Below, piece after piece: positions 3,658 to 45,049 of a stretch of DNA of 64,000 nt. Each line of letters starts with the position of its first letter. Within the stretch, counting starts at the first letter, position 1. The stretch lies in contig NZ_CP067130.1 in the NCBI RefSeq assembly GCF_028553745.1, forward strand, positions 124,001 through 188,000, written 5' to 3'. The notes under the pieces were generated by a model. The model had not been told where the DNA came from and made no database searches. It saw only the letters and a list, made by a program, of their open reading frames with translations. The DNA is from Paracoccus seriniphilus. Its GTDB lineage: Bacteria; Pseudomonadota; Alphaproteobacteria; Rhodobacterales; Rhodobacteraceae. The position numbers and the translations under genes are program-made.

Positions 3658-3708
3658 GCAATGCGTGATTTGATGCAATCAATTCGACGGATCAACAAAG
3701 GTTAAGCG

Positions 3709-4446
3709 ATGAACACGCGTCCCGCTGCGAAATATCAGATTGTCCATGACGAATTGCTGCGTCGGCTGAAGGCGGGAATGTATTCCGTGGGAACGCGTTT
3801 GCCCTCGGAAGAGGCGCTGGCGCAGTCTTTCGGGGTCAGCCGGGTCACCACCCGCCGGGCCTTGGAAATACTGGTCGATGCGGGCTATCTGATCTCGCGT
3901 CAGGGCAGTGGCTATCTGGTCAATACGCTTTCGCCGCCGGAAACCACCTGCCTGACCTCGTTCACCGACATGATGCTGCGCGAAGGCCGGGTGCCGGGTG
4001 CGCGGCTGATCGAGATACGCGAGCAGGACCCGACACCGCCTGCCGAGGTGACGGCGCTGTTTGACGAACCCGTGGCGTTGATCCGGCGCTTGCGGACTGT
4101 GGATGGCGTGCCGAAGCTGCTGGTCAATACATGGCTGCCCTGCAGGCTGGTGCCGGGTCTCAGCCCCGACGATTTTCCCGAAGAAGGGCAGGATCAGTCG
4201 ATCCTGCGGATCCTGACCGAGCGTTTTCATATCGACTGGGGCCGGGCCTGCGAGACGGTCGGGTCCTGCGCCGCACCGGCGGATGCCGCAAAATGGCTGG
4301 GGATCAAGCCCGACACACCGATCCTGTCGCAGGCCTGCACCGCCTTTGACGATGACCAGAAGCCGGTGTTTTTCGACCAGGTCTATCGGGTCAGCCCCAT
4401 CACCTACAATCTCGTCGGATCGCGGCGCCAAGCCGATCCGGCCTGA
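3709..4446 (+). CDS. GntR/HutC-family regulator with UTRA ligand domain
   Basis: 245 aa. An N-terminal winged helix-turn-helix (about 8-75, with LPSEEALAQSFGVSRVTTRRALEIL and RQGSGYLV) is followed by a UTRA effector domain (about 90-235). HutC-type regulators usually repress a catabolic operon and are released by a sugar or sugar phosphate. It lies between the aldehyde dehydrogenase and the isomerase-like gene on the same strand. A small inverted repeat (TTGAT, 3 bp, ATCAA at 3670-3682) lies upstream, and a longer palindrome precedes the ABC transporter genes. Both are plausible operators but unproven. Confidence 0.88.
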   Translation: MNTRPAAKYQIVHDELLRRLKAGMYSVGTRLPSEEALAQSFGVSRVTTRRALEILVDAGYLISRQGSGYLVNTLSPPETTCLTSFTDMMLREGRVPGARLIEIREQDPTPPAEVTALFDEPVALIRRLRTVDGVPKLLVNTWLPCRLVPGLSPDDFPEEGQDQSILRILTERFHIDWGRACETVGSCAAPADAAKWLGIKPDTPILSQACTAFDDDQKPVFFDQVYRVSPITYNLVGSRRQADPA

Positions 4447-4462
4447 ACCGAAGGAAGTTCAC

Positions 4463-5884: not shown

Positions 5885-5950
5885 CAGACAGACGGCACCG
5901 TGTAGAATTTGTAGATACTAATTAGGCAATACAAATTGCCTAAAGGGAGG
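5881..5950 (+). promoter_or_regulatory. Promoter, palindromic operator and RBS before the ABC importer genes
   Basis: TTGACA (5881-5886), a 16-bp spacer and TAGAAT (5903-5908) form a near-consensus sigma-70 promoter starting at the stop codon of the isomerase-like gene. Downstream is a perfect 8-bp inverted repeat, TTAGGCAA at 5922-5929 and TTGCCTAA at 5936-5943, separated by 6 bp, then a GGGAGG ribosome site at 5945-5950. A palindrome between promoter and RBS is a typical repressor position; the local GntR protein is the obvious candidate (inference). Confidence 0.65.
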
Positions 5951-5955
5951 CCCAT

Positions 5956-6993
5956 GTGACCAAGGTTCAGCTCAATGCCGTTCGCAAGCAGTTCGGTGCA
6001 TTCGTGGCGATCGAGAATATCGATCTGGACATCGAATCCGGAGAACTGGTGGCGCTGCTTGGCCCGTCGGGCTGCGGCAAGACGACGACGCTGCGCATGA
6101 TCGCCGGGCTGGAACGCCCCAGCGGCGGCGCGATCCTGTTTGACGGCAAGGACGTGTCCGAACAGCCGGTCCAAGACCGCAATGTCGGCATGGTCTTTCA
6201 GCGCTACGCGTTGTTTCCGCATATGACCGTGGAAAAGAATGTCGCCTTCGGGCTGAGCGTGCGGGGCACTCCGCGGGACGAGATCGGCGAACGGCTGGAA
6301 GAAATCCTTGATGTCGTGCAGCTGACGCAGTTCCGGCACCGCTTTCCCGCGCAGCTTTCGGGAGGGCAGATGCAGCGGGTGGCGATTGCGCGGACATTGA
6401 TCACCAAGCCCTCGGTGCTGATGATGGATGAGCCACTGGCCAATCTGGATACCAAGCTGCGGGGCGAGATGCGCCGCTTTATCCGCGATCTGCAGCAGCG
6501 GTTTGGCATCACCACCATCTTCGTCACCCATGATCAGGTCGAGGCGATGGAGCTGGCCGACCGCGTGGCGGTGATCTTCAACGGCCATCTGGCACAATAT
6601 GACGCGCCCGCCAAATTGTATCAGCAGCCCGCCAATCTGGATGTGGCCGATTTCATGGGGGCCAGCAATATCGTGCCCGGACGCATGAAATCCCATGAAC
6701 TGGTGGAAACCGCCATTGGCGAGATCCGGGTTGCATCGCGCGCCGGCTTTGACTCTGGCAAGGATGTGCAGGTGATGCTGCGCGGTGAAGCGATTGACCT
6801 GTTGACCAGCCAGCCCGCGCGGGGAGGCGTAGCGGGCCGGGTGGTGGCCCGCGATTTCTTCGGGGCCAGCGTCAATTACAACATCGACTGCGGCACGCAT
6901 CAGATCACGGTCAGCGAACAGGCGCGGCGACTGGTGGATGTCGGCACGCCGGTCTGGCTGAGTATCGATCCCGAAAGGGTCTGGCTTCTTTGA
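5956..6993 (+). CDS. ABC importer ATPase, PotA/UgpC-like
   Basis: 345 aa. Walker A GPSGCGKT (36-43), the Q-loop in FQRYALFP, signature LSGGQ (134-138), Walker B LMMDEP (155-160) and a switch His in FVTHDQ, followed by a C-terminal TOBE-type regulatory region. It powers uptake together with the following binding protein and two permeases. Translation starts at GTG 5956; an ATG two bases earlier is in another frame and runs straight into TGA (ATGTGA). RBS AAAGGGAGG is well placed. Confidence 0.92.
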   Translation: MTKVQLNAVRKQFGAFVAIENIDLDIESGELVALLGPSGCGKTTTLRMIAGLERPSGGAILFDGKDVSEQPVQDRNVGMVFQRYALFPHMTVEKNVAFGLSVRGTPRDEIGERLEEILDVVQLTQFRHRFPAQLSGGQMQRVAIARTLITKPSVLMMDEPLANLDTKLRGEMRRFIRDLQQRFGITTIFVTHDQVEAMELADRVAVIFNGHLAQYDAPAKLYQQPANLDVADFMGASNIVPGRMKSHELVETAIGEIRVASRAGFDSGKDVQVMLRGEAIDLLTSQPARGGVAGRVVARDFFGASVNYNIDCGTHQITVSEQARRLVDVGTPVWLSIDPERVWLL

Positions 6994-7038
6994 CGATAAC
7001 GGCTTTGCCGGAAACAAGAAATCTTTGGGAGGAGAACC

Positions 7039-8373
7039 ATGAAGATCACCGCAATTTACACGAGCCTGCTTGCGCTTGTCGCAGCCGGGGCCGTGCATGC
7101 CGATACGGCGCAGTTTCGCGAAGCGTTTCTGGCTGGCGAGGTCGACTGGGCTGCCGTCGAGGCGCAGGCCAAGGATGAAGGCAGCGTCAATCTGTATTAC
7201 TGGGGCGGGTCGGACCTGCTGAATGTGTGGATGGATCGGGTGGTGGCCCCGGCGCTGGAAAGCCAGGGCGTCGAGCTGAACCCGGTGCGTATCACCAGCA
7301 CCAAGGATGCGGTCGATCTGGTTCTGGCCGAGCAGAATTCCGGCGCCAGCGAAGGCAGCGTCGACATGATCTGGCTCAATGGCGAGAACTTTGCCACGCT
7401 CAAGCGGCAGGATGCGCTGTTTGGCAGCTTTGCTCCGCTGTTGCCCAATGCGGCCAATCTTGAATGGAACCCCGAGGATGAGCGCTCGGTCCTGAATCTG
7501 CGCGATTTCGGGGTCGAGACGGGTGGCGCCGAAATCCCCTGGTCGGGCGAGCAATATGTCTGCGCCTATAATGCCGACCGCGTGGCGGCAGAGGATGTGC
7601 CTTCGACCTTCGAGGCGCTGCGCAGCTATCTGGAAGAAAATCCCGGCAAGTTCACCTATATCAAGCCGCCGCATTATATCGGCAATACCTTCGTGCAAGA
7701 GGCGATCTACGCGCATAATCCCGATGGCACCGGCGCGGAACCGTTTCAGCAATCCTCCGATCAGATCCCGGCTGCGGAACTGGCGCGGCTGATCACGCCG
7801 GGCATGGAGTATCTGCGCGATCTGGAACCGCTGTTGCTGGATGCGGCTGGCGGATCGCCGCGCTATCCCGAAGACAATGCCGCGCTGGACGGGCTGTTCC
7901 TGAATGGCGAAGTGGATTTCAGCTGCACCTTCGGCCTGTATGCCGTGGCGACAGGGCTGGCCACAGGGTCCTATCCAGAGGCGGCGCAGCAATTCATCTT
8001 TCCCGAAGGCCATATGATCAAGAACAAGAACTATCTTGCGATTCCGGTGAATGCTCCGCATCCGGCCGCATCGCTTGTTCTGGCCAACTGGATGACCTCG
8101 GTCGAAGCCCAGGCCTCGAAGCTGCAACAGACCGGAATGCCCTCGGGTATCGACAGCTGGAAGCTGGACGAGGCCGGTGCAAAGGCGATTGCCGAGGCAT
8201 CGCCGGGACTGGTCGGTGTCGAGCAGGACGCGCTTGATGCCAACGCCGCACCCGATACCAATGCCACGCTGGTCGATGTGATCGAGGCGACCTGGCTGGA
8301 ATATATCGAACGCGACAGCTCGGACCCGATCGAGACGATCGTGGCCCGTGCCTACGAAAATCTGGCGAAGTAA
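7039..8373 (+). CDS. ABC importer periplasmic binding protein, YnjB-like
   Basis: 444 aa with a signal peptide cleaved near residue 21 (AGAVHA). The mature protein looks like the YnjB/extracellular-solute-binding group: a GSVNLYYWGGSD start, IWLNGENF and a C-terminal hinge region. It would deliver substrate to the two downstream permeases. A strong GGGAGGAG lies before the ATG. The substrate is not readable from sequence; context with a nucleoside hydrolase and sugar enzymes suggests a glycosylated compound (inference). Confidence 0.82.
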   Translation: MKITAIYTSLLALVAAGAVHADTAQFREAFLAGEVDWAAVEAQAKDEGSVNLYYWGGSDLLNVWMDRVVAPALESQGVELNPVRITSTKDAVDLVLAEQNSGASEGSVDMIWLNGENFATLKRQDALFGSFAPLLPNAANLEWNPEDERSVLNLRDFGVETGGAEIPWSGEQYVCAYNADRVAAEDVPSTFEALRSYLEENPGKFTYIKPPHYIGNTFVQEAIYAHNPDGTGAEPFQQSSDQIPAAELARLITPGMEYLRDLEPLLLDAAGGSPRYPEDNAALDGLFLNGEVDFSCTFGLYAVATGLATGSYPEAAQQFIFPEGHMIKNKNYLAIPVNAPHPAASLVLANWMTSVEAQASKLQQTGMPSGIDSWKLDEAGAKAIAEASPGLVGVEQDALDANAAPDTNATLVDVIEATWLEYIERDSSDPIETIVARAYENLAK

Positions 8374-8452
8374 TTCGCCGTCCCGGCCGTCCTGCACTCT
8401 TGTCTGACAGGGCGGCCATCCTTCCCTTTCCCCTTTTCTATCGGAGGCCCGG

Positions 8453-9376
8453 ATGTCCGTTTCATCGCCGCCCGCCCCCAGCGCAAGGCTGACCGCGCGT
8501 GAGCGCCGCACCCGGTTCTGGCAGATGGTCCAGCTTATGCCGATCATGGCCATTCTGGTGTTGCTGTTCGGCGGTGCGCTGGTGCTGGCGATCCTGCAAT
8601 CGCTGGGTTTTGCCCCCTGGTTCGGGGTGAATACCTTCCCTGATTTCAGCTATTTCGGGGCGCTCTGGGGGTCTTCAACCTTCTGGGCATCGCTGGGGCT
8701 GACGCTGTATTACGCGACGGTTTCGACCGTGCTGGCGCTGATCCTTGGCATTCTTCTGGCCTTGGCGCTGGTGAAGACCTTTCCCAGCAAGACCTTCTAC
8801 AAATATCTCTACAAGCTGCCGCTGATGATCCCCTATACGGTCGGCATCGCGCTGGCGGTCCTGATGCTGTCCAATGGCGGGATGCTGTCGCGCCTTGCGG
8901 CCTTTTTCGGGATGATCGACGATCCCTCGCAATTTCCCCAGATCCTGAAAACCCATTACGGCTGGGGCATCATTGCGGTCTATGTATGGAAGCAGACCCC
9001 TTTCATCACGCTGGCTGTCTATGCGGTTCTGCTGGGCATCGGGCGCGAAACCGAAGAGGCGGCGGCAATCCTTGGGGCCAGCCGACGCACGATATTCTTT
9101 CGCGTGACCCTGCCCCAGATCCTGCCGGGCGTGGTGTCCTCGACGCTGATCTGCTTTGCCTTCAATGTCGGTGCCTTCGAAGCGCCCTTCATTCTGGGCG
9201 GCGGTTTCCCCGATACGCTGCCGGTGGTGGCATGGCGCTATTTCAATGACGCCGATTACACCTTGCAGCTTCAGGGCATGGCCACGGTGGTGTCCATCGG
9301 ACTGGTCGCCGGGGTGATCCTGTTTGGCTATCTCGCGGCCTATCGCCGCTATGAACGACGCATGGGACGGAACTGA
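8453..9376 (+). CDS. ABC importer permease 1
   Basis: 307 aa, about six to seven hydrophobic segments. The cytoplasmic EAA loop that docks the ATPase is visible as EEAAAILGASRRTIFFRVTLP. It belongs to the binding-protein-dependent permease family (PotB/YnjC type) and pairs with the next gene in a heterodimer. The permease 2 start follows the stop by one base. Confidence 0.9.
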   Translation: MSVSSPPAPSARLTARERRTRFWQMVQLMPIMAILVLLFGGALVLAILQSLGFAPWFGVNTFPDFSYFGALWGSSTFWASLGLTLYYATVSTVLALILGILLALALVKTFPSKTFYKYLYKLPLMIPYTVGIALAVLMLSNGGMLSRLAAFFGMIDDPSQFPQILKTHYGWGIIAVYVWKQTPFITLAVYAVLLGIGRETEEAAAILGASRRTIFFRVTLPQILPGVVSSTLICFAFNVGAFEAPFILGGGFPDTLPVVAWRYFNDADYTLQLQGMATVVSIGLVAGVILFGYLAAYRRYERRMGRN

Positions 9377-9377
9377 C

Positions 9378-10238
9378 ATGGCCAAGAAATTCAATATCGC
9401 GTTGTCCAGCCGGCTTTCGCCGTTCCAGAAATTCTATCTGCTGGTGATTGCCGGGTTCATCCTTGGCCCCTTCATCCCGCTGATCATCCAGAGCTTTGCC
9501 TTCCGTTGGGCCTGGCCCGATCTGCTGCCGGGCACATGGTGGCTGGAGCAACGCGAAAAGGCGATGGCACCGCTGGCCTGGGATTATGTGCTGTCGCCCT
9601 ATAGCCGCGTCTGGGAGGCAACGGTCAATACCGTGTTCATCGGCACCATCGTCACGGTGATCTGTCTGGCGATCTGTCTGCCTGCCGCCCGCGTTCTCGC
9701 GCGCGAGAAGTTCCGGGGCAAAAGCGCCTTCGAGTTCTTTCTGTCGCTGCCCCTGATCGTGCCCGAGGCGGCCATCGGCATCGCCCTGCTGATGATGTTC
9801 ATCCGGCTGGGGCTGGCGGGCAGCTATGTCGGCATCATCCTTGCCCATCTGATCCCCACGATCCCCTATATGGTGCGGATGCTGACCGCCGTTTATCAGG
9901 GGCTTGGCCGCGATTTCGAGGAACAGGCGATGATCCTTGGCGCCAGCCGCTGGCAGGTTCTGCGCCTTGTGACGCTGCCCATGCTGCTGCCCGGTGTGGT
10001 GGCGGGGGCGCTGTTCACCTTCCTGGTATCGACCAATATCTTCCTGCTGACCTTCTTTCTGGGGCAGGGCCAGATCGTCACCCTGCCGACGCTGCTGTTC
10101 TCGAAGATCGCGGGCGGCACGCTGGATGCCTCGGCTGCCGGCATCACCCTGATCGTGACCCTGCCGGGGATCATTCTGCTCATCATTTCGGAACGCTTCA
10201 TCAAGGAAGAGGCTTTCGGCAAGGGCTTTGGAAATTAA
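9378..10238 (+). CDS. ABC importer permease 2
   Basis: 286 aa from the ATG right after the permease 1 stop; the frame extends upstream but this start fits the spacing. Multiple membrane segments, EAA loop FEEQAMILGASRWQVLRLVTLP. It is the second half of the importer channel, followed closely by the nucleoside hydrolase gene with an AAGGAG site. Confidence 0.9.
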   Translation: MAKKFNIALSSRLSPFQKFYLLVIAGFILGPFIPLIIQSFAFRWAWPDLLPGTWWLEQREKAMAPLAWDYVLSPYSRVWEATVNTVFIGTIVTVICLAICLPAARVLAREKFRGKSAFEFFLSLPLIVPEAAIGIALLMMFIRLGLAGSYVGIILAHLIPTIPYMVRMLTAVYQGLGRDFEEQAMILGASRWQVLRLVTLPMLLPGVVAGALFTFLVSTNIFLLTFFLGQGQIVTLPTLLFSKIAGGTLDASAAGITLIVTLPGIILLIISERFIKEEAFGKGFGN

Positions 10239-10250
10239 GGAGACCCATCC

Positions 10251-11360
10251 ATGACCACCCCGCTTTCCATTCTCGAAAGGTTTCCAAAGCTTGACGATGC
10301 CTTCGTCGAGGGCCGCCTTGGCCGTCCCGGTCCATCGCCGCGGGTGATCATCGACACCGACACCGCCAATGAGATCGACGATCAATATGCGCTGGCATGG
10401 GCCTTGCTGTCGCCCGAGCGGCTGGAACTGGAGGGCGTCACCGCCGTGCCCTTCAGCTTTGCCCATCACCGCGAAGAGCTGATCGAGTCGGTTGCCGCGC
10501 TGCGCGCGGCCTCGGATGCGGACAGCAAGGACAAGTTCATGGGCGGTCTGGGCGGCTGGGCACAGCGCCTGATCGAACAGGATCGCCGCGCCGAAGAGGT
10601 GAAATTCGTCGGCCCCGACGAGGGTGTCGAACTGTCCTATCAAGAGATCCTGCGCGTCTTTGACAAATGCGGCGTCCCCGCCGAGGGCAAGGTCTTTCGG
10701 GGCAGCCCCGGCTATCTGCAAGGTCTGGATGCGCCCATCGACACGCCGGCCGCGCGTTTCATCATTGAACGGGCGCGTGCGGATGACGACCGTCCGCTCT
10801 ATATTCTGGCGATGGGCGCGCTGACCAATATCGCCTCGGCGCTGCTGATGGCCCCTGACATCATCGAAAAGATCGTCGTGGTCTGGACCTCGGGCTTTCC
10901 ATCCTATGCGCCCTTCAGCAATGTGCCCTCGCTGAATCTTGTGCAGGACCGTCTGGCTTCGCAACTGCTGTTTGATTGCGCTGTGCCCCATGTCTATCTG
11001 CCCGGTTATCATGTCGGCGCGCAGTTGAAGCTGTCGTTGCCCGAGATGGAGCGTTTCGTCCAGGACAAGGGCGCGATCGGCGCCTATCTGCATCACCTTT
11101 ATACCAACAATCCGCTGCACGAGATGTTCGCCATCACCGGCGCGGAAACCAAGACCTGGGTGATCTGGGATGTGATCAATGTCGCATGGCTGTTTGACGA
11201 GAAATATGTGTCCACGCATATGACCCGTTCGCCGCTGCTGGATGACGGGCTGTTCTGGCGCCATCCCGAGGGCCGTCATCCGATGCTGGAGGCCTATGAT
11301 CTGGATCGCGATGCGATTTTCGAGGACATGTATCGCGCATTGGATCGCGCCCCGGCCTAG
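10251..11360 (+). CDS. Nucleoside hydrolase (IUNH family), cytoplasmic
   Basis: 369 aa without signal peptide. The calcium-binding signature DTDTANEIDD (35-44) is the IUNH fingerprint, and ILAMGALTNIA matches the LGPLTNIA region. The family cleaves N-glycosidic bonds of nucleosides to base plus sugar. As last gene of the importer operon, and only 12 bp after it, it implies that the imported solute carries an N-glycosidic bond and that the released sugar feeds the isomerase, kinase and aldolase upstream (inference). The protein is somewhat longer than typical IUNH enzymes (about 310-330 aa), with insertions around residues 70-170. Confidence 0.88.
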   Translation: MTTPLSILERFPKLDDAFVEGRLGRPGPSPRVIIDTDTANEIDDQYALAWALLSPERLELEGVTAVPFSFAHHREELIESVAALRAASDADSKDKFMGGLGGWAQRLIEQDRRAEEVKFVGPDEGVELSYQEILRVFDKCGVPAEGKVFRGSPGYLQGLDAPIDTPAARFIIERARADDDRPLYILAMGALTNIASALLMAPDIIEKIVVVWTSGFPSYAPFSNVPSLNLVQDRLASQLLFDCAVPHVYLPGYHVGAQLKLSLPEMERFVQDKGAIGAYLHHLYTNNPLHEMFAITGAETKTWVIWDVINVAWLFDEKYVSTHMTRSPLLDDGLFWRHPEGRHPMLEAYDLDRDAIFEDMYRALDRAPA

Positions 11361-34272: not shown

Positions 34273-34824
34273 TCAGGCAGAGCTGCGGGACAACAGGCTG
34301 GAGGGACGCGCCCGCGCCAGACCCGAGGTCAGAAGCCCCGCGACAATTGCCTTGACGATATCTCCGGGCACGAAGGCAAGGGTCAGCGCCGCAGCCTCGG
34401 GCAGGCTCTTGTTCAGGACGATCGCCATGCCTGCGGCCCCGAAGGCATAAAGCACCAGGATGCCCCCGATGATCGAGGCCACCGATGCGACCAGGGCCAC
34501 GGGTGCGCCGCGCCATTTTTCCATGATCAGGCCGGTGACAAAGGCCGCCGGCACCCAGCCCACCAGAAAGCCCGCGGTCGGCCCGACGAAAACACCCAGC
34601 CCGCCACGCGCCCCCGCCAGCACCGGCAAGCCAAGCGCGACGATCAGCAGCAGCAGCAGGATGGCCATGGCGCCCCGCCTTGCGCCCAGAATGGTGCCAC
34701 ACAGCATGACCCCAAGGGTCTGGGCGGTGATCGGCACGCCGAAACCCAGCGAAATCTTGGGCAAAAGCCCCAGAACCGCGATGACCGCCGCAAACAGCGC
34801 CACATGGGCGACTGATTTTTCCAT
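34273..34824 (-). CDS. bioY: BioY, biotin-binding S-component
   Basis: 183 aa, six membrane helices. Family landmarks: PITAQTLGVMLCGTILGARRG near 31-51 and GPTAGFLVGW near 81-90. It binds biotin and works with the EcfT/EcfA proteins encoded just upstream (3-bp gap to bioN). Confidence 0.93.
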   Translation of the reverse strand: MEKSVAHVALFAAVIAVLGLLPKISLGFGVPITAQTLGVMLCGTILGARRGAMAILLLLLIVALGLPVLAGARGGLGVFVGPTAGFLVGWVPAAFVTGLIMEKWRGAPVALVASVASIIGGILVLYAFGAAGMAIVLNKSLPEAAALTLAFVPGDIVKAIVAGLLTSGLARARPSSLLSRSSA

Positions 34825-34827
34825 GAT

Positions 34828-35442
34828 CTACTCCTTTTCAAGATTCCCCAGGCCGCCGCGCGCGCGCAGGGCCGTGCCGACATTGTCGGCATCGTCCAAT
34901 GCCAATAGGGCCAGCGGTGCAATGACCCGCCAGCGGGCACGTCTTGGCGAGCGTGCCGCCCAGCTTTCCGTCAGTTGATGCCCCTTGTCCGACAGCACCG
35001 GAACCATGCGGATCACCAGCGCAACGCCGATCTCCAGCGCTTTCATGTTCAGGCCCAGGCGGGTCAACGGCCGCACGATCCGGCGGATCACCGCCATCAT
35101 GTCGGTCAGCCGCGTCGTCATGGTCACCAGATTGGCCAGCCCCACCGCGCTGATCATGCGCAACACGATCACCAGCCCCTGGTCCAGATCGCGCGTCACG
35201 AGATGCCAGATCAGGATCATCACGACAAAGGGCCAAAGCACCCGCAGCCGCGACAGTCCGGCCCGGAAGAACCGCAGGCCCGGCGCAAGATACAGCCCCA
35301 ATGTTCCCGCGCAGGCCGCCAGTTGAAACCAGAGGTCCGAAACCATCGCAAGGATGGCGGTCGCCACCAGCAGAAGCCCCAGCTTCAGCGCTGCGGGCAG
35401 ATCATGGGCGCGGGTTCTAACGGGTGAGGTCAGAGATATCAT
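34828..35442 (-). CDS. bioN: BioN, EcfT transmembrane subunit
   Basis: 204 aa, four to five hydrophobic segments; the C-terminal SWAARSPRRARWRVIAPLA region carries the Ala-Arg-Gly-like coupling motif of EcfT (ARG-type AARSPR). Overlaps bioM by 26 bp. Couples ATP hydrolysis by BioM to BioY. Confidence 0.87.
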   Translation of the reverse strand: MISLTSPVRTRAHDLPAALKLGLLLVATAILAMVSDLWFQLAACAGTLGLYLAPGLRFFRAGLSRLRVLWPFVVMILIWHLVTRDLDQGLVIVLRMISAVGLANLVTMTTRLTDMMAVIRRIVRPLTRLGLNMKALEIGVALVIRMVPVLSDKGHQLTESWAARSPRRARWRVIAPLALLALDDADNVGTALRARGGLGNLEKE

Positions 35443-36187
35443 CGCTCTCTCCCAGCCGGGTCATCTCGGCAAGATAGCTGGCCATGACCTCGGGGCCGTT
35501 CCCCTGCTGCACGATCCGGCCCTTTTCCAGCCAGATCACCGTCTCGCAGCCGTCCAGATCCTGCGGGTCATGGGAAATATGAATGACTGCGCCCGGGAAC
35601 AGTTGCAGATAACGGCGCAATTGTGCCCGCGTCGGCATGTCAAGTCCGGCAAAGGGCTCATCCAGGATCAGAACCCGGGGCGCCATGGCCATGATGGACA
35701 TCAGGCAGACCAGATGTTTCTGTCCCTGTGACAGGGTCGAAATCGCCACTTCGGCCCAATCCGACTTGTGAAAGCTGGTCAGGGTCGCGCGGGCATCACG
35801 CTCGGCATCGCGGCTGGAACGGCCCAGTTGGGTCAGCCCGAAGGCGATCTCTTCCAGCACCGTGGGAAAGATGATCTGGTGATCGGGGTTCTGGAACAGG
35901 ATGCCCACGGTCCGCAGCGCGGCGCGACGGTCGGCATACATATCCGCGCCGTTCAGCCTCGCGCGACCGTCGGTCGGCCGGATCAGCCCGGCCAGCACCC
36001 GCGCCAGCGTGGACTTGCCCGAGCCATTGCGCCCGACCACCCCCATGCGCCGGATGCCAAGGTCCAGGTTCAGCCCGGTCAGAACCTCGCGCCCCTCGCG
36101 CCGCAGGGTAACGCCCTCCAGGGTCACCCGCATCGGTCGGGCGTTCTCGGTCATTGCGGCCGTGGTGTGCTTTGCTTGCATCGTCAT
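35417..36187 (-). CDS. bioM: BioM, EcfA ATPase
   Basis: 256 aa. Walker A GRNGSGKST, LSQGQKHLV signature (the typical EcfA variant of LSGGQ), Walker B VLILDEPFAGLD, switch His in IHISHD. First gene of bioMNY, reading away from the RpiR-type regulator. The initiator ATG directly follows the stop of a small open frame (TGAATG). No obvious BioR box (TTATAGATAA type) was found upstream. Confidence 0.92.
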   Translation of the reverse strand: MTMQAKHTTAAMTENARPMRVTLEGVTLRREGREVLTGLNLDLGIRRMGVVGRNGSGKSTLARVLAGLIRPTDGRARLNGADMYADRRAALRTVGILFQNPDHQIIFPTVLEEIAFGLTQLGRSSRDAERDARATLTSFHKSDWAEVAISTLSQGQKHLVCLMSIMAMAPRVLILDEPFAGLDMPTRAQLRRYLQLFPGAVIHISHDPQDLDGCETVIWLEKGRIVQQGNGPEVMASYLAEMTRLGESDDISDLTR

Positions 36188-37458: not shown

Positions 37459-38517
37459 TCACCGGATGTCGCGGGCGCGTTCCTCTGCCAGTTCCTCGGT
37501 CGCCTTGGTGACGGCGGCCTGCATGGCGTCAAAGATCTCCTGCCCGCCCTGCACATTCGCGGTGAACCATTCATAGACCGGCTGCGCCGCCTCGGCGAAG
37601 GCCTGTTTTTCTTCGGGGCTGGGCACATAGAGATCGCCGCCACCCGCGACGAATTCCTCGTAGGCCGGGATGGATTTGCGCTTGGGCGCGGCAAAGGTCG
37701 CCTGCTGAAGCTGGTAGAAACCATCGACCACGACACGGCGCATGTCTTCGGGCATGGCCATGAACTTGTCGTTCGACATCCACCACAAGGCGCCCATATA
37801 GGCGTGGCCGTCCAAGGTCAGATATTGCAGCCCGGCCTCGGGGAATTTCATCGACATGATATCGGTGATGCCATTCTTGGTGCCCTCGACCACCCCGGTC
37901 TGCAGCGAGGTGAACAGTTCCGGCCAGGGAATCGGCGTCGGGGCCGCTTCCAGCGTGCTGACCAGTTCTTGCGGCAGATCGGCCACCACGGTGCGGATCT
38001 TCATGCCCTTCAGATCCTCGGGGCGCTGCACGCGGCGCTTGGTATTGGCAAAGTTGCGCCAGCCGCCGGTATTGCCAATGGTCATCAGCCGGATCGTGCC
38101 GCCGGAATCCTCCAGCGCCATGTCGCGCATGGTCCGGGTAAAGTCGCCCGACAGCACCTTTTCCGCCACGCGGTCATCCTGCATCACATAGGGAAGGTCC
38201 AGGACCTGCACATAGGGAAACAGCCCTGCCGCCCCGCCCGAGGTCGAGATATAGACGTCGATCGAACCCTCGGCGACGCCCTGCAGGCATTCCGCCCCGT
38301 TCGAGCACAGCTGCGTGCCCATGTAGATCTCGACCTCGATGGCGCCATTCGAGGCGCTTTCGACATAGGATTTGAAGACCTGCAGCCCGTCATAATCCTC
38401 GTCACTCTCGTTCGAATTGGCGACCGCGCGAATGGTGTATTCCTGCGCCATCGCAGGCAGGGCAAGCGCGGCCGTCATGGTCAGCGTCGCCGCCAATGTT
38501 GTCATCTTCTTGAGCAT
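37459..38517 (-). CDS. TRAP transporter binding protein (DctP family)
   Basis: 352 aa, signal peptide about 1-24 (ALPAMA). DctP features: the Arg-containing LKGMKIRTVVADLPQEL segment and a PIPWPELFTSLQTGVVEGTKNG ligand region. It captures a substrate, in this family normally an anion whose carboxylate pairs with the conserved Arg; sulfonates are also known. Last gene of a six-gene operon with a monooxygenase set. Confidence 0.92.
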   Translation of the reverse strand: MLKKMTTLAATLTMTAALALPAMAQEYTIRAVANSNESDEDYDGLQVFKSYVESASNGAIEVEIYMGTQLCSNGAECLQGVAEGSIDVYISTSGGAAGLFPYVQVLDLPYVMQDDRVAEKVLSGDFTRTMRDMALEDSGGTIRLMTIGNTGGWRNFANTKRRVQRPEDLKGMKIRTVVADLPQELVSTLEAAPTPIPWPELFTSLQTGVVEGTKNGITDIMSMKFPEAGLQYLTLDGHAYMGALWWMSNDKFMAMPEDMRRVVVDGFYQLQQATFAAPKRKSIPAYEEFVAGGGDLYVPSPEEKQAFAEAAQPVYEWFTANVQGGQEIFDAMQAAVTKATEELAEERARDIR

Positions 38518-38545
38518 CGTATCCTCCCAGTGGCTCGGATGAAAA

Positions 38546-39838
38546 TCAGTCCGCGAAACCGGCCAGACGCGGAATCGTCATGGAGATCGCGGGGAAATAG
38601 GTAATCAGAAAGATCACGAGGATCTCGACAGCAAGGAATGGCAGGATGGCACGGGAAATGGTCGTCACCCGTTCCTGCGACACGGCCGAGGCCACGAAGA
38701 GCACCAGGCCCATCGGCGGCGTGGCCAGGCCGACGGTCAGGTTCACGCACATGATGATGGCGAAATGCACGCTGTCCACGCCCATGTCGGCAAAGACCGG
38801 TCCCAGGATCGGGCCAAGGATGATGATCGCGGGGCCGGCGTCCAGGAACATTCCCACCACGAACAGCAGCAGGTTGATCAGGAACAGCATCAGCAGCGGA
38901 TTGTCCGTCAGCATCAGAATGAATTCGGCCATCATCTGCGGCGCATGTGACAGTGAAACCACGGTCTTGAAGGACATCGCCGCCCCCACCAGCAGCAGCA
39001 CCACCGCCGAGGTCAGCCCGGCGCGGCCCAGCACCTCGGGCAGTTCGGAGAAACGCAGGCTTCTCAGCACGAACAGGCTGATGAACAGCGCATAGAAGAC
39101 GGCAACGGCCGCAGCCTCGGTCGGGGTGAAGACGCCCGCCAGAATGCCCCCCAGGATGATCACCGGTGTCATCAGCGGAAAGAAGGCCTTCAGGCTGGCC
39201 TGTCCCCGCTCTTTCCAGCCATATCTGCGCGAGGCGACCGGAAAATCATAGCGATCGGCCATGAATTTGATCAGCAGCATCAGCCCGACCCCGACCAGAA
39301 TGCCCGGCACCAGACCGGCCAGAAACAGCGCCGCGACGCTTTCGCCCATCACATAGGCATAGATGATCATGATTCCCGAGGGCGGAATGATCGGCCCGAT
39401 GACCGAGCTTGCGGCCGTGATGGCGGCTGCAAAGCGGCGGGTATAGCCCTGTTTCTCCATCGCCGGGATCAGCATCGAGCCAAGCGCCGAGGTATCGGCC
39501 ACGGCCGAGCCCGACAGCCCGGCAAAGAGCATCGAGGACAAGACGTTCACATGCGCCAGCCCGCCGCGCAGATGCCCCATGAAGGCCTGGCTGAATTCGA
39601 CCAGCCGATGGGTGATGCCGCCGCGATTCATGATCTCGCCCGCCAGCATGAAGAAGGGAATGGCCATCAGCGGGAAACTGTCCATGCCGTTGTAAAGGTT
39701 CCGGTAAAGCAGCGTCAGGTCGCGCTCTTGCCCGTTCAGGAACAGCAGGATTCCCGGCGCGGCCAGCAGGCCGAAGAACACCGGCAGGCCGATCATCAGG
39801 AAGACAAGGAACAGGGGAAGAAACCAGATCAACATCAC
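38546..39838 (-). CDS. TRAP transporter large permease (DctM family)
   Basis: 430 aa, about twelve helices. Typical DctM stretches include IPFFMLAGEIMNRGGIT, LSGSAVADTSALGSMLIPAM and GLATPPMGLVLFVAS. Sodium-coupled uptake channel; four-base overlap with the DctQ-type gene. Confidence 0.93.
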   Translation of the reverse strand: MMLIWFLPLFLVFLMIGLPVFFGLLAAPGILLFLNGQERDLTLLYRNLYNGMDSFPLMAIPFFMLAGEIMNRGGITHRLVEFSQAFMGHLRGGLAHVNVLSSMLFAGLSGSAVADTSALGSMLIPAMEKQGYTRRFAAAITAASSVIGPIIPPSGIMIIYAYVMGESVAALFLAGLVPGILVGVGLMLLIKFMADRYDFPVASRRYGWKERGQASLKAFFPLMTPVIILGGILAGVFTPTEAAAVAVFYALFISLFVLRSLRFSELPEVLGRAGLTSAVVLLLVGAAMSFKTVVSLSHAPQMMAEFILMLTDNPLLMLFLINLLLFVVGMFLDAGPAIIILGPILGPVFADMGVDSVHFAIIMCVNLTVGLATPPMGLVLFVASAVSQERVTTISRAILPFLAVEILVIFLITYFPAISMTIPRLAGFAD

Positions 39839-40422
39839 TCACTGCCTCCGGTCCGGGGCTCGGCGTTCAGCGCCAGTCCATGAAGGCCGCACAAGACGGC
39901 CAGATTGCGCAGGATCAGCTCGATATTGACCAGCAGCAGCAACAGGAAGCCGACCAGCAGCGACGCCATCATCCAGCTGCGGGGCAGGCGATACCATGCG
40001 CTGAAATCCCAGGCGGTCGGCACGAAAAGCGAGGCCGAGGCAAAGCGCCCGCCAATGCCGGTGACTTCGCTCCAGCCCAGTTTCAGGGCCACGGCCAGCA
40101 CGATCAGGCTGAGCGACAGCAGCACAAGGTTCAACAGGCTGCCCAGCCATTGCGGCAGCATGGTGGGCAGGATGTCGATGGCAACGAACCCCCCGCGCCG
40201 AAAGGCCGTCGGGGCCATCAGCCCGGTCATCCACAACATGCAGAAGCGCGCGGCTTCATCCGGCCAGGGCAGCGCATTGTTCAGCAGGTAGCGGCAGAAC
40301 ACCTGCACCAGCGTGACCGCGACCATGACCGCGATGGCGAAGATGCCGATGCCATAGCCGATCTTCAGCAATCGTTCATTCACCCATGACAGGCAGCGGA
40401 TCGGCCCGTGCAACATGAACAT
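39835..40422 (-). CDS. TRAP transporter small permease (DctQ family)
   Basis: 195 aa from the ATG preceded by GGAGGGGGAAG; the frame is open further upstream over the flavin reductase gene but this start is well supported. Four membrane helices; WPDEAARFCMLWMTGL is the DctQ signature region. Confidence 0.9.
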   Translation of the reverse strand: MFMLHGPIRCLSWVNERLLKIGYGIGIFAIAVMVAVTLVQVFCRYLLNNALPWPDEAARFCMLWMTGLMAPTAFRRGGFVAIDILPTMLPQWLGSLLNLVLLSLSLIVLAVALKLGWSEVTGIGGRFASASLFVPTAWDFSAWYRLPRSWMMASLLVGFLLLLLVNIELILRNLAVLCGLHGLALNAEPRTGGSE

Positions 40423-40480
40423 TTTTCTTCCCCCTCCACTGCAGGCGCGACCGCCCCCTCCTCGGGGCGGGATGGCGCGG

Positions 40481-40987
40481 TCAGTTATATTGTATCCGCG
40501 CCATTCGACCTCCGAAAAAGGCCAGCGGATCGCCCTGTTGCATGGTGGCGCGCAGCACCTCGCCCAGAACGATGGCATGGTCGCCCGCGTCATGGCGCGC
40601 GTAACGACGACAATCAAAGCGGGCAAGGCATTGTTCCAGCACCGGCACGCCGTGATCGTTCTGCGCCAGCCTGCGGTCCTTCAGGGCGGCGCCATTGCGC
40701 GCGACCGCCCATGCCAGTTCATGCTGATCGGCCGACAGCACGTGAATCGCGTAATGTTCGGCCTCGGCGAACAATGCAAAGCGGCTGGAATGACGCGCCG
40801 GAGACCACAGCACCAGCGGCGGGTTCATCGAGACCGAGGAAAAGCTGTTGGCGGTGATCGCCGCACAGCCGGATGGACCCTGCGCGGTCACGATGGTCAC
40901 GCCGGTTGCGAACATGCCAAAGGCGTCGCGCAGAACCCGGCCATTTTCCGGGTCGGGCACGAAACTGCGGGGTTGAGCGACTTGCAT
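40481..40987 (-). CDS. Flavin reductase partner of the monooxygenase (HpaC/RutF-like)
   Basis: 168 aa; its ATG overlaps the aldo-keto reductase stop (ATGA). Flavin-reductase domain with FATGVTIVTAQG, AITANSFSSVSMNPPLVL and a late GDPLAFFGGR. It supplies reduced FMN to the LLM-class monooxygenase two genes upstream. The pair of monooxygenase plus reductase is the standard two-component desulfonation system. Confidence 0.9.
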   Translation of the reverse strand: MQVAQPRSFVPDPENGRVLRDAFGMFATGVTIVTAQGPSGCAAITANSFSSVSMNPPLVLWSPARHSSRFALFAEAEHYAIHVLSADQHELAWAVARNGAALKDRRLAQNDHGVPVLEQCLARFDCRRYARHDAGDHAIVLGEVLRATMQQGDPLAFFGGRMARIQYN

Positions 40988-41901
40988 CAGGCCACCTCGC
41001 GGCCCAGGGCCGCCTCGTAAAGCTGGAACCATTGCACGCGGGTCATGTCGACCTTGCAGGCATCGGAAATGCCGGCGATCCGGGGCAGGGAGTTCGTGCC
41101 CAGAACCGGCAGTATCCGGGCCGGGTGGCGCAGCAGGAAGGCCACCGCAATGGCGGCACGGTCGACACCGAATTCCGCGGCCATCGCGTCCATGCGCCGG
41201 GTCAGTTCGCTGTCCTCGCGCATCAGGCTTCCCCCGCCGAGGGGCGACCATGCCATGACCGGATCGTTGCGGCGCTGGTGAAAGGCCAGATCGCCATCGC
41301 TGAAAGGTTCGATGCGGGCCAGCGACAGCTCGATCTGGTTCGTGGCCAGCGGCGTCTGCATGGCGCTTTGCAGCAATTCGACATCATGGGGGCGGAAATT
41401 GGACACGCCGACGGCCCGGATCTTGCCCGATTTGACCAGCCCGTCCAGCGCCGCGCCCGTTTCGCGGTGATCCATCAGCGGATCGGGGCGGTGGATCAGC
41501 AGCAGGTCGATATGATCGGTGCCCAGATCGCGCAGCGAATTTTCGACCGAGGCGGTGATATGGGCCGCCGTGGTGTCGTAATGCTTGCAGGCGACATCCG
41601 CATATTTGCCGCAGGGTGCGACAATCCCGCATTTGGTCACCAGTTCGACCCGCTGGCGCAGTCCCGGATCGGCTTTCAGCGCCTGGCCGAGGATCGATTC
41701 AGCGGTATAATCGCCATAGATGTCGGCCTGATCCAGCGTGGTGATGCCCTGCGCCAGAACCGCATCGATCTTGGCGCGGACATGGGCCACCGATGTATCG
41801 GCATCGTCGCCGATGCGCCACATGCCATAGACGAGGCGCGAGAAGCTCAGGTCTTCGGAAATGCTGACCCGTTCGACTGGAAAATCCCTGCGAGTATCCA
41901 T
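40987..41901 (-). CDS. Aldo-keto reductase, YdhF-like
   Basis: 304 aa, starting within the monooxygenase stop (ATGA). The AKR tetrad is complete: D57 (TLDQADIYG), Y62, K90 (LVTKCG) and H137 (LLIHRPDP). NATNQ-like and MAWSPLGGG regions bind NADPH. In the described sulfoquinovose monooxygenase pathway an AKR (SmoB) reduces 6-oxoglucose to glucose. Operon position between an SsuD-like monooxygenase and a flavin reductase fits that role, but other aldehyde products are possible. Confidence 0.87.
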   Translation of the reverse strand: MDTRRDFPVERVSISEDLSFSRLVYGMWRIGDDADTSVAHVRAKIDAVLAQGITTLDQADIYGDYTAESILGQALKADPGLRQRVELVTKCGIVAPCGKYADVACKHYDTTAAHITASVENSLRDLGTDHIDLLLIHRPDPLMDHRETGAALDGLVKSGKIRAVGVSNFRPHDVELLQSAMQTPLATNQIELSLARIEPFSDGDLAFHQRRNDPVMAWSPLGGGSLMREDSELTRRMDAMAAEFGVDRAAIAVAFLLRHPARILPVLGTNSLPRIAGISDACKVDMTRVQWFQLYEAALGREVA

Positions 41902-43055
41902 CAACGACGCTCTCCTGCTCCAAGCGGGGTCTGCGGCATGCTGTCGGGCACGCGGCCCCAGACCCGGTTCAACTGACAAGTCTTCATCTGCGGCAGAACC
42001 CGGCTGCCGAAATGTTCTGCCTCATCGATATGGGGATAGCCCGACAGGATAAAGGCACGGATTCCCATATTCCGCAGTTCTTCCAGTTTGCTCAGAACCT
42101 GGTCGGTCGAGCCGACAATGGCCGCCCCGCAGCCCGAGCGCGCACGGCCGACACCGGTCCAGAGATTGGGTTCGATATAGCCTTCCAGATCGGCCAGCTC
42201 GCGGTTGCGGGCCTGATGGCTGACACCCAGGCTGCCCGCGTCGAGCGCGCGTTCGCGAATCGCGCGGCCCAGGTCGTCATCCAGCTTGCTGGCGATATGG
42301 CGGGCATATTCGCGGGCCTCGGCCTCGGTATCGCGGACGATCACATGGGCGCGGAAACCGTAATCCAGCGTGCGGCCGTATTTCTCGGCGGCGGCATGGG
42401 CGGCCTGCATCCGCGCGGCGATATCCTCGGTCTTTTCCGGCCACATCAGATAGACATCGCAATGCTGTCCACACAGATCCAGGGCGTCGGGGGAATAGCC
42501 GCCAAAATACAGCATCGGCCCGCCCTGCTGGTAGGGTTTGGCCGGATCGGTGGTCAGACCCGAGAAATTGTAAACCTGTCCCTGATAGTCGATCTGATCG
42601 CGATTCCATGCCTGTTTCAGGATTTCGACCACCTCGCGCGAACGCTGGTAGCGATAGGCGCTGTCGGCCTTTTCGCCCGGAAAGTCGGACGAGATGATAT
42701 TCACCGTCAGCCGCCCCTGCAGCATGTGATCCAGCGTCGCGATGGTGCGCGCCAGCATGATCGGCTGCATCTCGCCGCAGCGCACGGCGGCCAGCAGGTT
42801 GATGCTTTCGGTGATCGGCGCGCAGCCTGCCACGAAGCTGAGCGTATCCTGCCCGACCTGATAGGATGACGGGCACAGGATATTGCCGAAACCCTGTGCT
42901 TCGGCGGTCTTCACGATATCGGAACAATGTTTCCAGGACGAGCGCAGGTCACCGTCCGGCACGCCCAGGAACTGATAGTCATCCGAACAGAGCGCCGAGA
43001 ACCAGGCGACCTCCACTGCATCCAGATCCGCGGATGTCACGGGAACAACCGTCAT
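41901..43055 (-). CDS. SsuD-like LLM-class FMNH2-dependent monooxygenase
   Basis: 384 aa from the ATG preceded by GGGAGGAAAGC. Resembles alkanesulfonate monooxygenase: a CPSSYQVGQDTLSF region, LLAAVRCGEMQPIMLARTIATLDHMLQGRLTVNI and SREVVEILKQAW. With FMNH2 from the co-encoded reductase it would oxidise a C-SO3 or similar bond, releasing sulfite and an aldehyde. The neighbouring AKR and Gfo/Idh/MocA genes point to a sugar sulfonate such as sulfoquinovose (SmoC/SqoD role), which is inference. Nitrilotriacetate- or dibenzothiophene-type substrates are alternatives. Confidence 0.87.
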   Translation of the reverse strand: MTVVPVTSADLDAVEVAWFSALCSDDYQFLGVPDGDLRSSWKHCSDIVKTAEAQGFGNILCPSSYQVGQDTLSFVAGCAPITESINLLAAVRCGEMQPIMLARTIATLDHMLQGRLTVNIISSDFPGEKADSAYRYQRSREVVEILKQAWNRDQIDYQGQVYNFSGLTTDPAKPYQQGGPMLYFGGYSPDALDLCGQHCDVYLMWPEKTEDIAARMQAAHAAAEKYGRTLDYGFRAHVIVRDTEAEAREYARHIASKLDDDLGRAIRERALDAGSLGVSHQARNRELADLEGYIEPNLWTGVGRARSGCGAAIVGSTDQVLSKLEELRNMGIRAFILSGYPHIDEAEHFGSRVLPQMKTCQLNRVWGRVPDSMPQTPLGAGERR

Positions 43056-43165
43056 GCTTTCCTCCCTCAGGATCGCTGAAATTTCTACTTTACTAGCTCT
43101 CGATTTGATGTAGATCAATGGTGTATCAATTTCGTTCCCCAGCAAAGCGGAGGATGGGCGGGGCC
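43056..43165. promoter_or_regulatory. Divergent control region with dyad TTGAT-N4-ATCAA
   Basis: The gap between the monooxygenase operon and the GntR gene carries TTGAT (43105-43109) and ATCAA (43114-43118), a perfect 5-bp dyad and a candidate GntR operator. The second arm overlaps the earliest possible GntR start, which argues for a start further downstream. Confidence 0.45.
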
Positions 43166-43891
43166 ATGCAGAACATGCGTCGCAACAGCGGCAACAGGCC
43201 CGATGCGTTGCCGATCTACATGCAGATCTGTGAATTGCTGATTCGGGATATCGCCGCAGGTCGGCTGGTCGATGGCCAGAAACTGCCGCCCGAGCGCGAC
43301 TTTGCCAAAGCCCATGGCACGACCGTGCGGACCCTGCGCAAAGCCCTGTCGATGCTGGAAGAAAAGGGCCTGCTGGAGCGGCGGCAGGGGTCGGGAAACT
43401 ATGTTCGCGCCGCCGGTCAGGTCGAATCGGTCTATTCGATGCTGCGCCTTGAACTGGCGCAGGGCGGGGGCGGATTGCCGACGGCGGATATCCTGTCAGT
43501 CGATTACCTGCCCAAGGATTCCGCCCAGCCAGGTTATGGCACATCCGACCATGGCACCCGCTTTCGCCGGCTGCGCTATCTGGACGATCAGATCGTCGCC
43601 ATCGAGGAAATCTGGCTGGATGGCGGCGCCGGTCGCGTGGCGCGCGAAATGGTGCAGGATTCGCTTTACCTGACCTATCGGCGCGTCCTGAACCTGTGGA
43701 TCACCCGTGCCGAGGACCGTGTCGGAATCGGCAAGGTCCCCGGCTGGACCCCCGATGCCTTTCCGCTGCCCGAAGGCAGCATCACCGCCTATATCGAACG
43801 GCTTGCCTGGGGGCAGGACGTCGCGGCGGTCGAATTTTCACGCACCTGGTATGACACCGAAAAGGCGCTCTACGTGCAGCGCCTGACCTGA
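43118..43891 (+). CDS. GntR-family regulator with UTRA-like domain
   Basis: 257 aa at most. Winged HTH (about 30-100, with LPPERDFAKAHGTTVRTLRKALSMLEEKGLLERRQGSGNYV) and a C-terminal effector domain. The start is undecided: ATG 43118 lacks an RBS and overlaps the dyad; ATG 43154 and 43166 are alternatives, the latter 12 bp after GGAGG. Divergent from the monooxygenase/TRAP operon and 15 bp before the Gfo/Idh gene, so it probably controls both. Confidence 0.85.
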   Translation: MVYQFRSPAKRRMGGAMQNMRRNSGNRPDALPIYMQICELLIRDIAAGRLVDGQKLPPERDFAKAHGTTVRTLRKALSMLEEKGLLERRQGSGNYVRAAGQVESVYSMLRLELAQGGGGLPTADILSVDYLPKDSAQPGYGTSDHGTRFRRLRYLDDQIVAIEEIWLDGGAGRVAREMVQDSLYLTYRRVLNLWITRAEDRVGIGKVPGWTPDAFPLPEGSITAYIERLAWGQDVAAVEFSRTWYDTEKALYVQRLT

Positions 43892-43906
43892 TGAGGGAAG
43901 GACCCC

Positions 43907-45049
43907 ATGACGACCGAAACGCTTCTGCGCAGTGAGACCCGGACCATCACCTATGGCATCATCGGCTGCGGCATGATGGGACAGGAGCATCTGCGCAATA
44001 TCGCACTGCTCGGGAACACCACCGTCGGCGCGATCTTCGAGCCGGATGCAGAGATGCGGGCGCGTGCCGCGCAATTTGCCCCGAAGGCGTGCTTTGTCGA
44101 CAGCATCGAGGCACTGCTGGATGTGCCCGACCTCGACTGTCTGCTGATCGTCAGTCCCAATTACCGCCATGTCGAACAGTTGCAGGCCATCGCCGGCAAG
44201 CGGCCCCTGCCTGTGCTGGTGGAAAAGCCGCTTTTCACCGACCCCGAACATGCCCGCGCGATCGATGCCTTTGCGGCCAGCTATCCGGCGCCGGTCTGGG
44301 TGGCGATGGAATATCGCTATATGCCGCCCGTCGCCAAGCTGCTGGAAGAGGCCGGGGCCGCGACCGGCGGCATCAAGATGCTGACCATCCGCGAGAACCG
44401 TTTCCCCTTTCTGGAGAAGGTCGGCGACTGGAACCGCTTCAACCGCTATACGGGCGGCACCTTCGTCGAGAAATGCTGCCACTTCTTCGATCTGATGCGT
44501 CTGGCGCTGAAATCCGATCCCCTGCGTGTCATGGCAATGGGCGGACAGGCGGTGAACCATCTGGACGAAACCTATGGCGGCGAAAGGCCGGACATTCTGG
44601 ACCATGGCTATGTTCTGGTCGATTTCGAGAACGGCGCCAAGGCGATGCTGGAACTGTGCATGTTCGCCGAGGGCGCGCGCTATCAAGAGGAAATTTCGGC
44701 CATTGGCCCCAAGGGAAAGATCGAGGCCCTGGTGCCCGGCCCGACGCGTTTCTGGCCATCCCATCTGGGTGCCCCCCCCGTGGCACAGGTCATCCGGTCT
44801 CCGCGCAATCCAAAGGGGCCGGAAGTGCAGGAAATTCCCGTCGATCCGACCATTCTGGAAGCCGGGGATCACAATGGTTCCACTTTCTACCAGCATCGCG
44901 GTTTTCTGGAACTGGTGCGCGGCGAACGCAGCGCGCCCGATGTGTCGCTGCTTGATGGGAAATGGGCGGTGCTGATGGGGCTGGCGGCACAGCGTTCCAT
45001 GGCCGAGCGGCGCGCGGTCGAACTGAGCGAACTGACTGGCACCGACTGA
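43907..45049 (+). CDS. Gfo/Idh/MocA-family NAD(P)-dependent protein
   Basis: 380 aa. N-terminal Rossmann fold (YGIIGCGMMGQEHLRN), EKP motif in VEKPLFTDPEH (about K105), and GGTFVEKCCHFFD for substrate binding, then a C-terminal alpha/beta domain. The family contains sugar dehydrogenases and NAD-dependent glycosidases, including sulfoquinovosidases (SqgA-like, GH188). In a sulfosugar operon the glycosidase role is attractive; a dehydrogenase role is equally possible on sequence. Confidence 0.82.
   Translation: MTTETLLRSETRTITYGIIGCGMMGQEHLRNIALLGNTTVGAIFEPDAEMRARAAQFAPKACFVDSIEALLDVPDLDCLLIVSPNYRHVEQLQAIAGKRPLPVLVEKPLFTDPEHARAIDAFAASYPAPVWVAMEYRYMPPVAKLLEEAGAATGGIKMLTIRENRFPFLEKVGDWNRFNRYTGGTFVEKCCHFFDLMRLALKSDPLRVMAMGGQAVNHLDETYGGERPDILDHGYVLVDFENGAKAMLELCMFAEGARYQEEISAIGPKGKIEALVPGPTRFWPSHLGAPPVAQVIRSPRNPKGPEVQEIPVDPTILEAGDHNGSTFYQHRGFLELVRGERSAPDVSLLDGKWAVLMGLAAQRSMAERRAVELSELTGTD

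Follow-up and report, generated by a model that had tools for sequence, protein, structure and literature searches.

A predicted sulfoquinovose monooxygenase operon of Paracoccus seriniphilus with a GH188 sulfoquinovosidase and a probable TRAP-type sulfosugar importer

A gene cluster for the predicted degradation of sulfoquinovose (SQ) was found in a 64,000-nucleotide stretch of the Paracoccus seriniphilus genome (contig NZ_CP067130.1, positions 124,001 to 188,000; hereafter the window, whose own numbering is used throughout). Judged from its genes, it is a sulfoquinovose monooxygenase (sulfo-SMO) cluster, in which the enzymes SmoC, SmoB and SmoA are encoded together with DctP, DctQ and DctM, the components of a tripartite ATP-independent periplasmic (TRAP) transporter, opposite a divergent GH188 sulfoquinovosidase gene (Table 1). 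The operon probably serves the complete use of SQ and its glycosides, and the TRAP system likely imports SQ or its glycoside. All genes named in a preliminary description of this DNA were located, and their protein families were matched far above chance.

The sulfo-SMO assignment is based on the similarity of SmoC and SmoB to solved chains and on a GH188 protein with all nine checked residues. In phmmer comparisons, the window SmoC is identical at 291 of 383 residues (76.0%, 684 bits) to PDB chain 7olf and at 283 of 383 residues (73.9%, E 3e-200) to 7oh2, both of which we take to be SmoC structures, deposited under the molecule names "Methanesulfonate sulfonatase" and "Alkanesulfonate monooxygenase". 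The aldo-keto reductase shares 187 of 296 residues (63.2%) with 7bbz, presumably a SmoB structure. The residues that we take to form the SsuD-type active site (Trp196, Arg226, His228, Arg297, and Tyr331 in E. coli SsuD) are kept in the window SmoC as Trp205, Arg235, His237, Arg306, and Tyr340 in an alignment to 1m41. The flavin reductase partner, SmoA, is encoded by a PF01613 gene that overlaps smoB and occupies the same place in other loci. The preliminary description had recognized the monooxygenase, flavin reductase and aldo-keto reductase as the SMO core set, which agrees with SmoC and SmoB being the nearest solved structures. Sulfo-SMO clusters have been defined by homologs of SmoB and SmoC inside a window of 10 open reading frames (PMC13372026); here the two genes are adjacent and overlapping, and their products are 63% and 76% identical to the solved chains. 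A second SmoC-like subfamily (approximately 52% identical) was observed beside GH188 and a distant SmoB at two loci (L130 and L131 in our numbering) of other alphaproteobacterial families, without this DctP.

The divergent Gfo/Idh/MocA protein is predicted to be a GH188 NAD-dependent sulfoquinovosidase. It is identical at 240 of 365 residues (65.8%) to 8zn9 and at 180 of 361 residues (49.9%, E 3e-108) to 8qc3, the GH188 NAD-dependent sulfoquinovosidase ArSqgA (PMC10755693). All nine GH188 residues checked are kept, namely Lys107, Tyr136, Glu164, Arg166, Leu170, Lys172, Glu189, His193, and His321 in ArSqgA numbering, taken here as the chain number minus 13, by which the glutamate is 164 rather than the Glu163 of PMC10755693. 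The sulfonate triad Arg166, Leu170, and Lys172 (PMC10755693, PMC11465081) corresponds to Arg165, Leu169, and Lys171 of the window protein, and the other six are catalytic or substrate residues. The preliminary description had proposed this function from the superfamily and had asked whether the sulfonate-binding residues of SqgA were absent; they are present, together with the substrate and catalytic residues.

The sequences show gene content and order, homology, conserved residues, co-occurrence, and a second pathway context of the transporter; how catalysis and transport proceed in this organism, which ion is coupled to uptake, and what the promoter palindrome does are what we infer, as follows. 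In the periplasm, SQ or sulfoquinovosyl glycerol would be bound by DctP and then carried into the cell by DctQM, driven by an ion gradient. The GH188 SqgA would free SQ from the glycoside through a transient NAD-dependent oxidation at C3. SmoA would supply reduced flavin to SmoC, which with O2 would cut the C-S bond to yield sulfite and 6-dehydroglucose, and SmoB would then reduce 6-dehydroglucose to glucose. As long as no sugar ligand is bound, the GntR/UTRA protein probably acts on the palindrome to keep the divergent promoter repressed.

The distribution of the operon was surveyed by a SmoC scan of GTDB genome records, from which the best 80 of at least 589 relatives were examined, a sample that leans to close relatives, includes several metagenome-assembled genomes and contains some loci cut by contig ends. 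Among these 80 loci, smoA, smoB, and gntR are present in all, GH188 in 79, dctQ, dctM, and dctP in 69, and an ABC (ATP-binding cassette) binding-protein match in five. The genera bearing the operon include Paracoccus, Salipiger, Ruegeria, Phaeobacter, and Roseibium, among others. The order GH188-gntR / smoC-smoB-smoA-dctQ-dctM-dctP is the usual arrangement of the group to which the window belongs, and its occurrence in other genomes argues that the arrangement is not due to chance. Five of the 11 plasmid matches were inspected. Four of these plasmids, from Ruegeria sp. TM1040, Salipiger sp. CCB-MM3, Roseicitreum antarcticum, and, outside Rhodobacterales, Rhizobium sp. SL42, carry this operon; the fifth, from Photobacterium (47%), lacks SQ genes, and dctP is accompanied there by dctM alone. 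The combination of importer and GH188 that the preliminary description regarded as a possible new variant is present, but most of the 80 loci have the TRAP form, and GH188 in Roseobacter SMO clusters has already been published (PMC10755693). The cluster is a widespread variant of a known pathway and not peculiar to the window.

Uptake by the TRAP system, as the preliminary description had supposed, is supported at the level of gene content by co-occurrence with SmoC and by a second pathway context. Among 295 genomes of the same family, 123 have SmoC (counted at E up to 1e-100) and 100 have the DctP clade (at least 66% identity), with both in 75, SmoC only in 48, DctP only in 25, and neither in 147 (Fisher test 7e-17, uncorrected for kinship); three genomes with DctP at 39-52% were counted as negative. 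A sample of the class (n = 385) contains both in eight genomes, SmoC only in one, DctP only in three, and neither in 373 (Fisher test 1e-13, also uncorrected for kinship), with 12 SmoC-like matches at 49-54% and two DctP matches at 44-50% counted as negative. The identity cut-offs were chosen after the matches were seen.

The second context emerged from inspection of all 25 DctP-only loci of the family, where SmoC had no match. In 17 of them, DctQMP is accompanied by an SftI-like isomerase, a PfkB kinase, and a second GH188, with a LacD-type aldolase in 16 of the 17; this form, which resembles a sulfo-Embden-Meyerhof-Parnas (sulfo-EMP) cluster and is here called sulfo-EMP-like, also occurs in two genomes of another family (L119 and L120). 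Compared with the window proteins, the sulfo-EMP-like loci have DctPs of 68-82% identity and GH188s of only 46-54%, and the canonical GH188 residues including Leu170 are kept in all 20 proteins checked (the sulfo-EMP-like loci and L107). Six further loci resemble SMO remnants, including L094 (gntR, GH188), L099 (smoA, smoB, gntR, GH188), L103 (smoA, smoB), and L106, where the whole SMO cluster is present and the SmoC match is split into two pieces. The last two (L101 and L104) have only a MauG-like neighbor. At L099 (7853-9746), GH188, gntR, smoB, smoA, and dctQMP are kept with no room for smoC between smoB and gntR, and the locus reads as a loss of the C-S cleaving enzyme.

A tree was built from 79 of the 112 DctPs, comprising all except 33 SMO ones. 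The SMO and sulfo-EMP-like DctPs interleave on it, and the sulfo-EMP label requires 10 changes, at least four of them by well-supported branches. The uptake step common to both pathways would be that of SQ or its glycosides, which are therefore presumably what the TRAP system imports. We consider it fairly likely that DctPQM is a dedicated TRAP importer for the intact sulfosugar (SQ or sulfoquinovosyl glycerol) and that it is a module repeatedly exchanged between two SQ pathways of different chemistry, the oxidative desulfonation of SMO and a sulfo-EMP-like split.

The best-surviving alternative, which is nevertheless unlikely, is that the enzymes degrade SQ but the TRAP system serves a different substrate, such as a carboxylate or a sulfonate smaller than SQ, and uptake of SQ itself has a separate route. 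Several observations weigh against a dedicated TRAP importer of SQ. This DctP is missing from 48 of the 123 SmoC-positive family genomes, which therefore manage without it, so the TRAP genes are not obligatory. Among the first 20 of these 48 by number, seven have an SMO-linked ABC binding-protein gene near smoC, one has other ABC genes only, and 12 have neither. Several remnants keep only one or two SMO genes (smoB at L091, smoA at L095), bootstrap values for the DctP tree were not yet stable, and three sister-cluster proteins score 243-285 bits with the SQ-isomerase model, under its curated cut-off of 700, so that "sulfo-EMP-like" is a label that we infer. In the binding site, DctP Arg154, Arg175, Asn215, and Trp198 align (to 8t9t) with Arg156, Arg177, Asn217, and Trp200 of the isethionate binder IseP, whose ligand-binding residues were taken from PMC11668362; among 74 SMO and 18 sulfo-EMP-like DctPs, at least 97% and 94%, respectively, keep these residues. 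The anion site Arg154/Arg175/Asn215 is, however, generic to TRAP binding proteins and common to carboxylate binders and therefore no proof of a sulfonate ligand. The further IseP sulfonate contacts Ser95, Asn98, and Tyr153 are Thr92, Gly95, and Gly151 in DctP, so DctP is not classed as an IseP ortholog, and its candidacy as an IseP-like sulfonate-specific binding protein was rejected. The predicted DctP structure (mean predicted local distance difference test score, pLDDT, 78) does not discriminate between ligands.

The genome itself also encodes other ABC sugar importers, one in the window (5956-10235) and one on another contig. Two SMO-linked ABC binding-protein types exist, represented by L043 and L037. 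A close relative of the L043 type was not found in the genome (best 28%, E 1e-7), while a 56% identical relative of the L037 type (E 3e-153) is present, which slightly lowers confidence in TRAP uptake of SQ. A GH13 (alpha-amylase-family) gene lies between the permease and ATPase genes of this operon, which makes an alpha-glucoside importer the likelier function, with SQ transport possible. Against import of another substrate by the TRAP system, dctQMP is co-directional with smoCBA and stands again beside GH188 in a second SQ-type pathway, the two contexts interleave on the DctP tree, and the 56% ABC relative points to alpha-glucosides. We retain TRAP import of SQ or its glycoside as the likely reading. 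Genes for a SoxYZ-like fusion, a SoxH-related metallohydrolase, and a radical S-adenosylmethionine protein with a SPASM domain are found beside the ABC/GH13 operon (L160:9023-15853, contig 1). The ABC sugar importer of the window is part of a second sugar cluster (243-11357, plus strand), which also includes a DhaK-type kinase, a LacD-type aldolase, an aldehyde dehydrogenase, a GntR/UTRA regulator, a nucleoside hydrolase-like gene, and an open reading frame that the sulfoquinovose isomerase model matches weakly (82 of 700 bits, E 3e-23); its substrate might be another (sulfo)sugar.

The remaining alternatives concern the enzymes. It is improbable that the cluster acts on another sulfosugar such as sulfofucose, a possibility that the preliminary description had raised as a pathway for another sugar sulfonate. 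Other sulfosugars do exist and a Paracoccus uses sulfofucose (PMC12421959), but the identity of SmoC to 7olf is high, the SQ-contacting GH188 residues are kept, including the sulfonate triad and Glu189, which contacts the C4-OH of SQ (PMC10755693), and the sulfofucose route, as far as described in PMC12421959, employs different enzymes and an ABC importer. Slightly less probable still, the Gfo/Idh/MocA protein might be a common dehydrogenase of sugars or inositol and no sulfoquinovosidase: its top NCBIfam match is inositol 2-dehydrogenase, but with 89 of 355 bits, far under the cut-off, while 8zn9, 8qc3, and 8qc2 are its nearest solved chains and the nine GH188 residues are complete. Least probable is that SmoC has no part in sugar metabolism and scavenges sulfur as a general alkanesulfonate monooxygenase (SsuD). 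It belongs to the SsuD superfamily (TIGR03565, E 3e-69), at 234 bits against a cut-off of 518, but scores 178-184 bits with SsuD/MsuD-type chains versus 684 with 7olf and has SmoB and GH188 as companions.

The layout of the locus is given in Table 1. TGATG start/stop overlaps at three of the five minus-strand junctions (smoC/smoB, smoB/smoA, and dctQ/dctM) suggest translational coupling; gaps of 58 and 28 bases separate smoA from dctQ and dctM from dctP. The GntR/UTRA regulator between smoC and the GH188 gene was absent from the preliminary description.

Table 1. Features of the predicted sulfo-SMO locus (positions in the window)
Feature	Positions	Strand	Assignment and matches
dctP	37459-38517	-	TRAP substrate-binding protein; PF03480 1e-53
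dctM	38546-39835	-	TRAP large permease; PF06808 2e-120; TIGR00786 over cut-off
dctQ	39835-40422	-	TRAP small permease; PF04290 1.5e-23
smoA	40481-40987	-	Flavin reductase; PF01613 (Flavin_Reduct) 8e-34; 4xhy E 2e-42
smoB	40987-41901	-	Aldo-keto reductase; Aldo_ket_red 4e-51; 7bbz E 4e-121
smoC	41901-43055	-	Predicted FMNH2-dependent sulfoquinovose monooxygenase (luciferase-like monooxygenase class); Bac_luciferase 2e-52; 7olf E 4e-205
Palindrome TTGATGTAGATCAA	43105-43118	none	Inside divergent smoC-gntR promoter region
gntR	~43166-43891	+	GntR/UTRA regulator; PF00392 and PF07702; start codon uncertain, frame open from 43118
sqgA-type GH188 gene	43907-45049	+	GFO_IDH_MocA 1e-17; 8zn9 E 3e-163

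The palindrome TTGATGTAGATCAA is a candidate operator of the GntR protein. It occurs exactly in 48 of 86 smoC upstream regions, with at most one mismatch in 58 and at most two in 65. Composition-only shuffling of the window region gave no exact and three one-mismatch occurrences in 2000, and the window contains one palindrome versus 0.05 expected, with at least one in five of 100 shuffles. The sequence also fits the FNR consensus, which makes an FNR-type site an alternative.

Two further genes recur near dctP. In 33 of the 80 SMO loci, dctP is followed, usually directly, by a MauG/di-haem cytochrome c peroxidase-like gene, which is also present in 16 of 18 sulfo-EMP-like loci (e.g., L086:10547-12295 and L153:10046-11275). 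We know of no role of this protein in SQ use, and the P. seriniphilus genome has only a distant relative of the gene. A YeiH-type "putative sulfate exporter" gene is likewise present in 33 of the 80 SMO loci (e.g., L157:9083-10108), directly after dctP in all 10 loci viewed in detail, and its product is a plausible exit route for sulfite. The two genes occur together in only four of the 80 loci. The window lacks the YeiH-type gene, and three PF03601 genes are located elsewhere in the genome. Elsewhere in the window, three minus-strand genes (34273-34824, 34828-35442, and 35417-36187) resemble, judged from their translations, a biotin energy-coupling factor transporter set (BioY, BioN, BioM).

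The Agrobacterium sulfoquinovosidase is a GH31 enzyme, in contrast to the GH188 enzyme of the window. The sulfo-SMO (sulfo-ASMO) pathway of Agrobacterium tumefaciens otherwise has SmoA, SmoB, and SmoC homologs side by side and the same predicted chemistry (PMC12890257), but its importer is of the ABC type (PMC9594981). Kaur et al. (2023, PMC10755693) reported GH188 in nearly all sulfo-SMO clusters of Roseobacter clade bacteria, and the window cluster is of this kind; the main text of that paper, in the part available, does not name the importer, while here the TRAP system is tied to SQ by the second pathway context. The isomerase, PfkB kinase, LacD-type aldolase, and GH188 of published GH188 sulfo-EMP clusters (Arthrobacter AK01 type; Y158/Y160 groups, PMC11465081) recur in the sister clusters that share DctP, but the published clusters, as far as presented there, have ABC importers, whereas the sister clusters have DctQMP and a canonical Leu170 GH188. 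IseP (PDB 8t9t, 8te9; PMC11668362) resembles the present case in sulfonate uptake by a TRAP system and in four residues of the site (an arginine pair, an asparagine, and a tryptophan); its ligand isethionate is a small C2 sulfonate, and DctP is similar to it at the superfamily level only (E 6.5e-27). The SQ uptake systems named in the available portions of PMC9594981, PMC12421959, and PMC11659671 are ABC importers and the transporter SftA. No report of TRAP uptake of SQ was found in the literature searched, with the likeliest Roseobacter papers (Liu et al., 2023; Ma et al., 2025) outside it. What is new here is the evidence on the TRAP substrate; the sulfo-SMO enzymes and GH188 in Roseobacter clusters were already known.

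Annual production of sulfoquinovose, the sulfur sugar of plant and algal membranes, amounts to approximately 10 billion tons (PMC10755693), and its consumers in the sea include Roseobacter-type bacteria. If the proposed function is true, TRAP transport would be a main SQ uptake route in many Rhodobacterales, DctPQM would serve in marine sequence data as a marker of SQ use that does not depend on the degradation route, and the substrate range of TRAP transporters would extend to intact sulfosugars.

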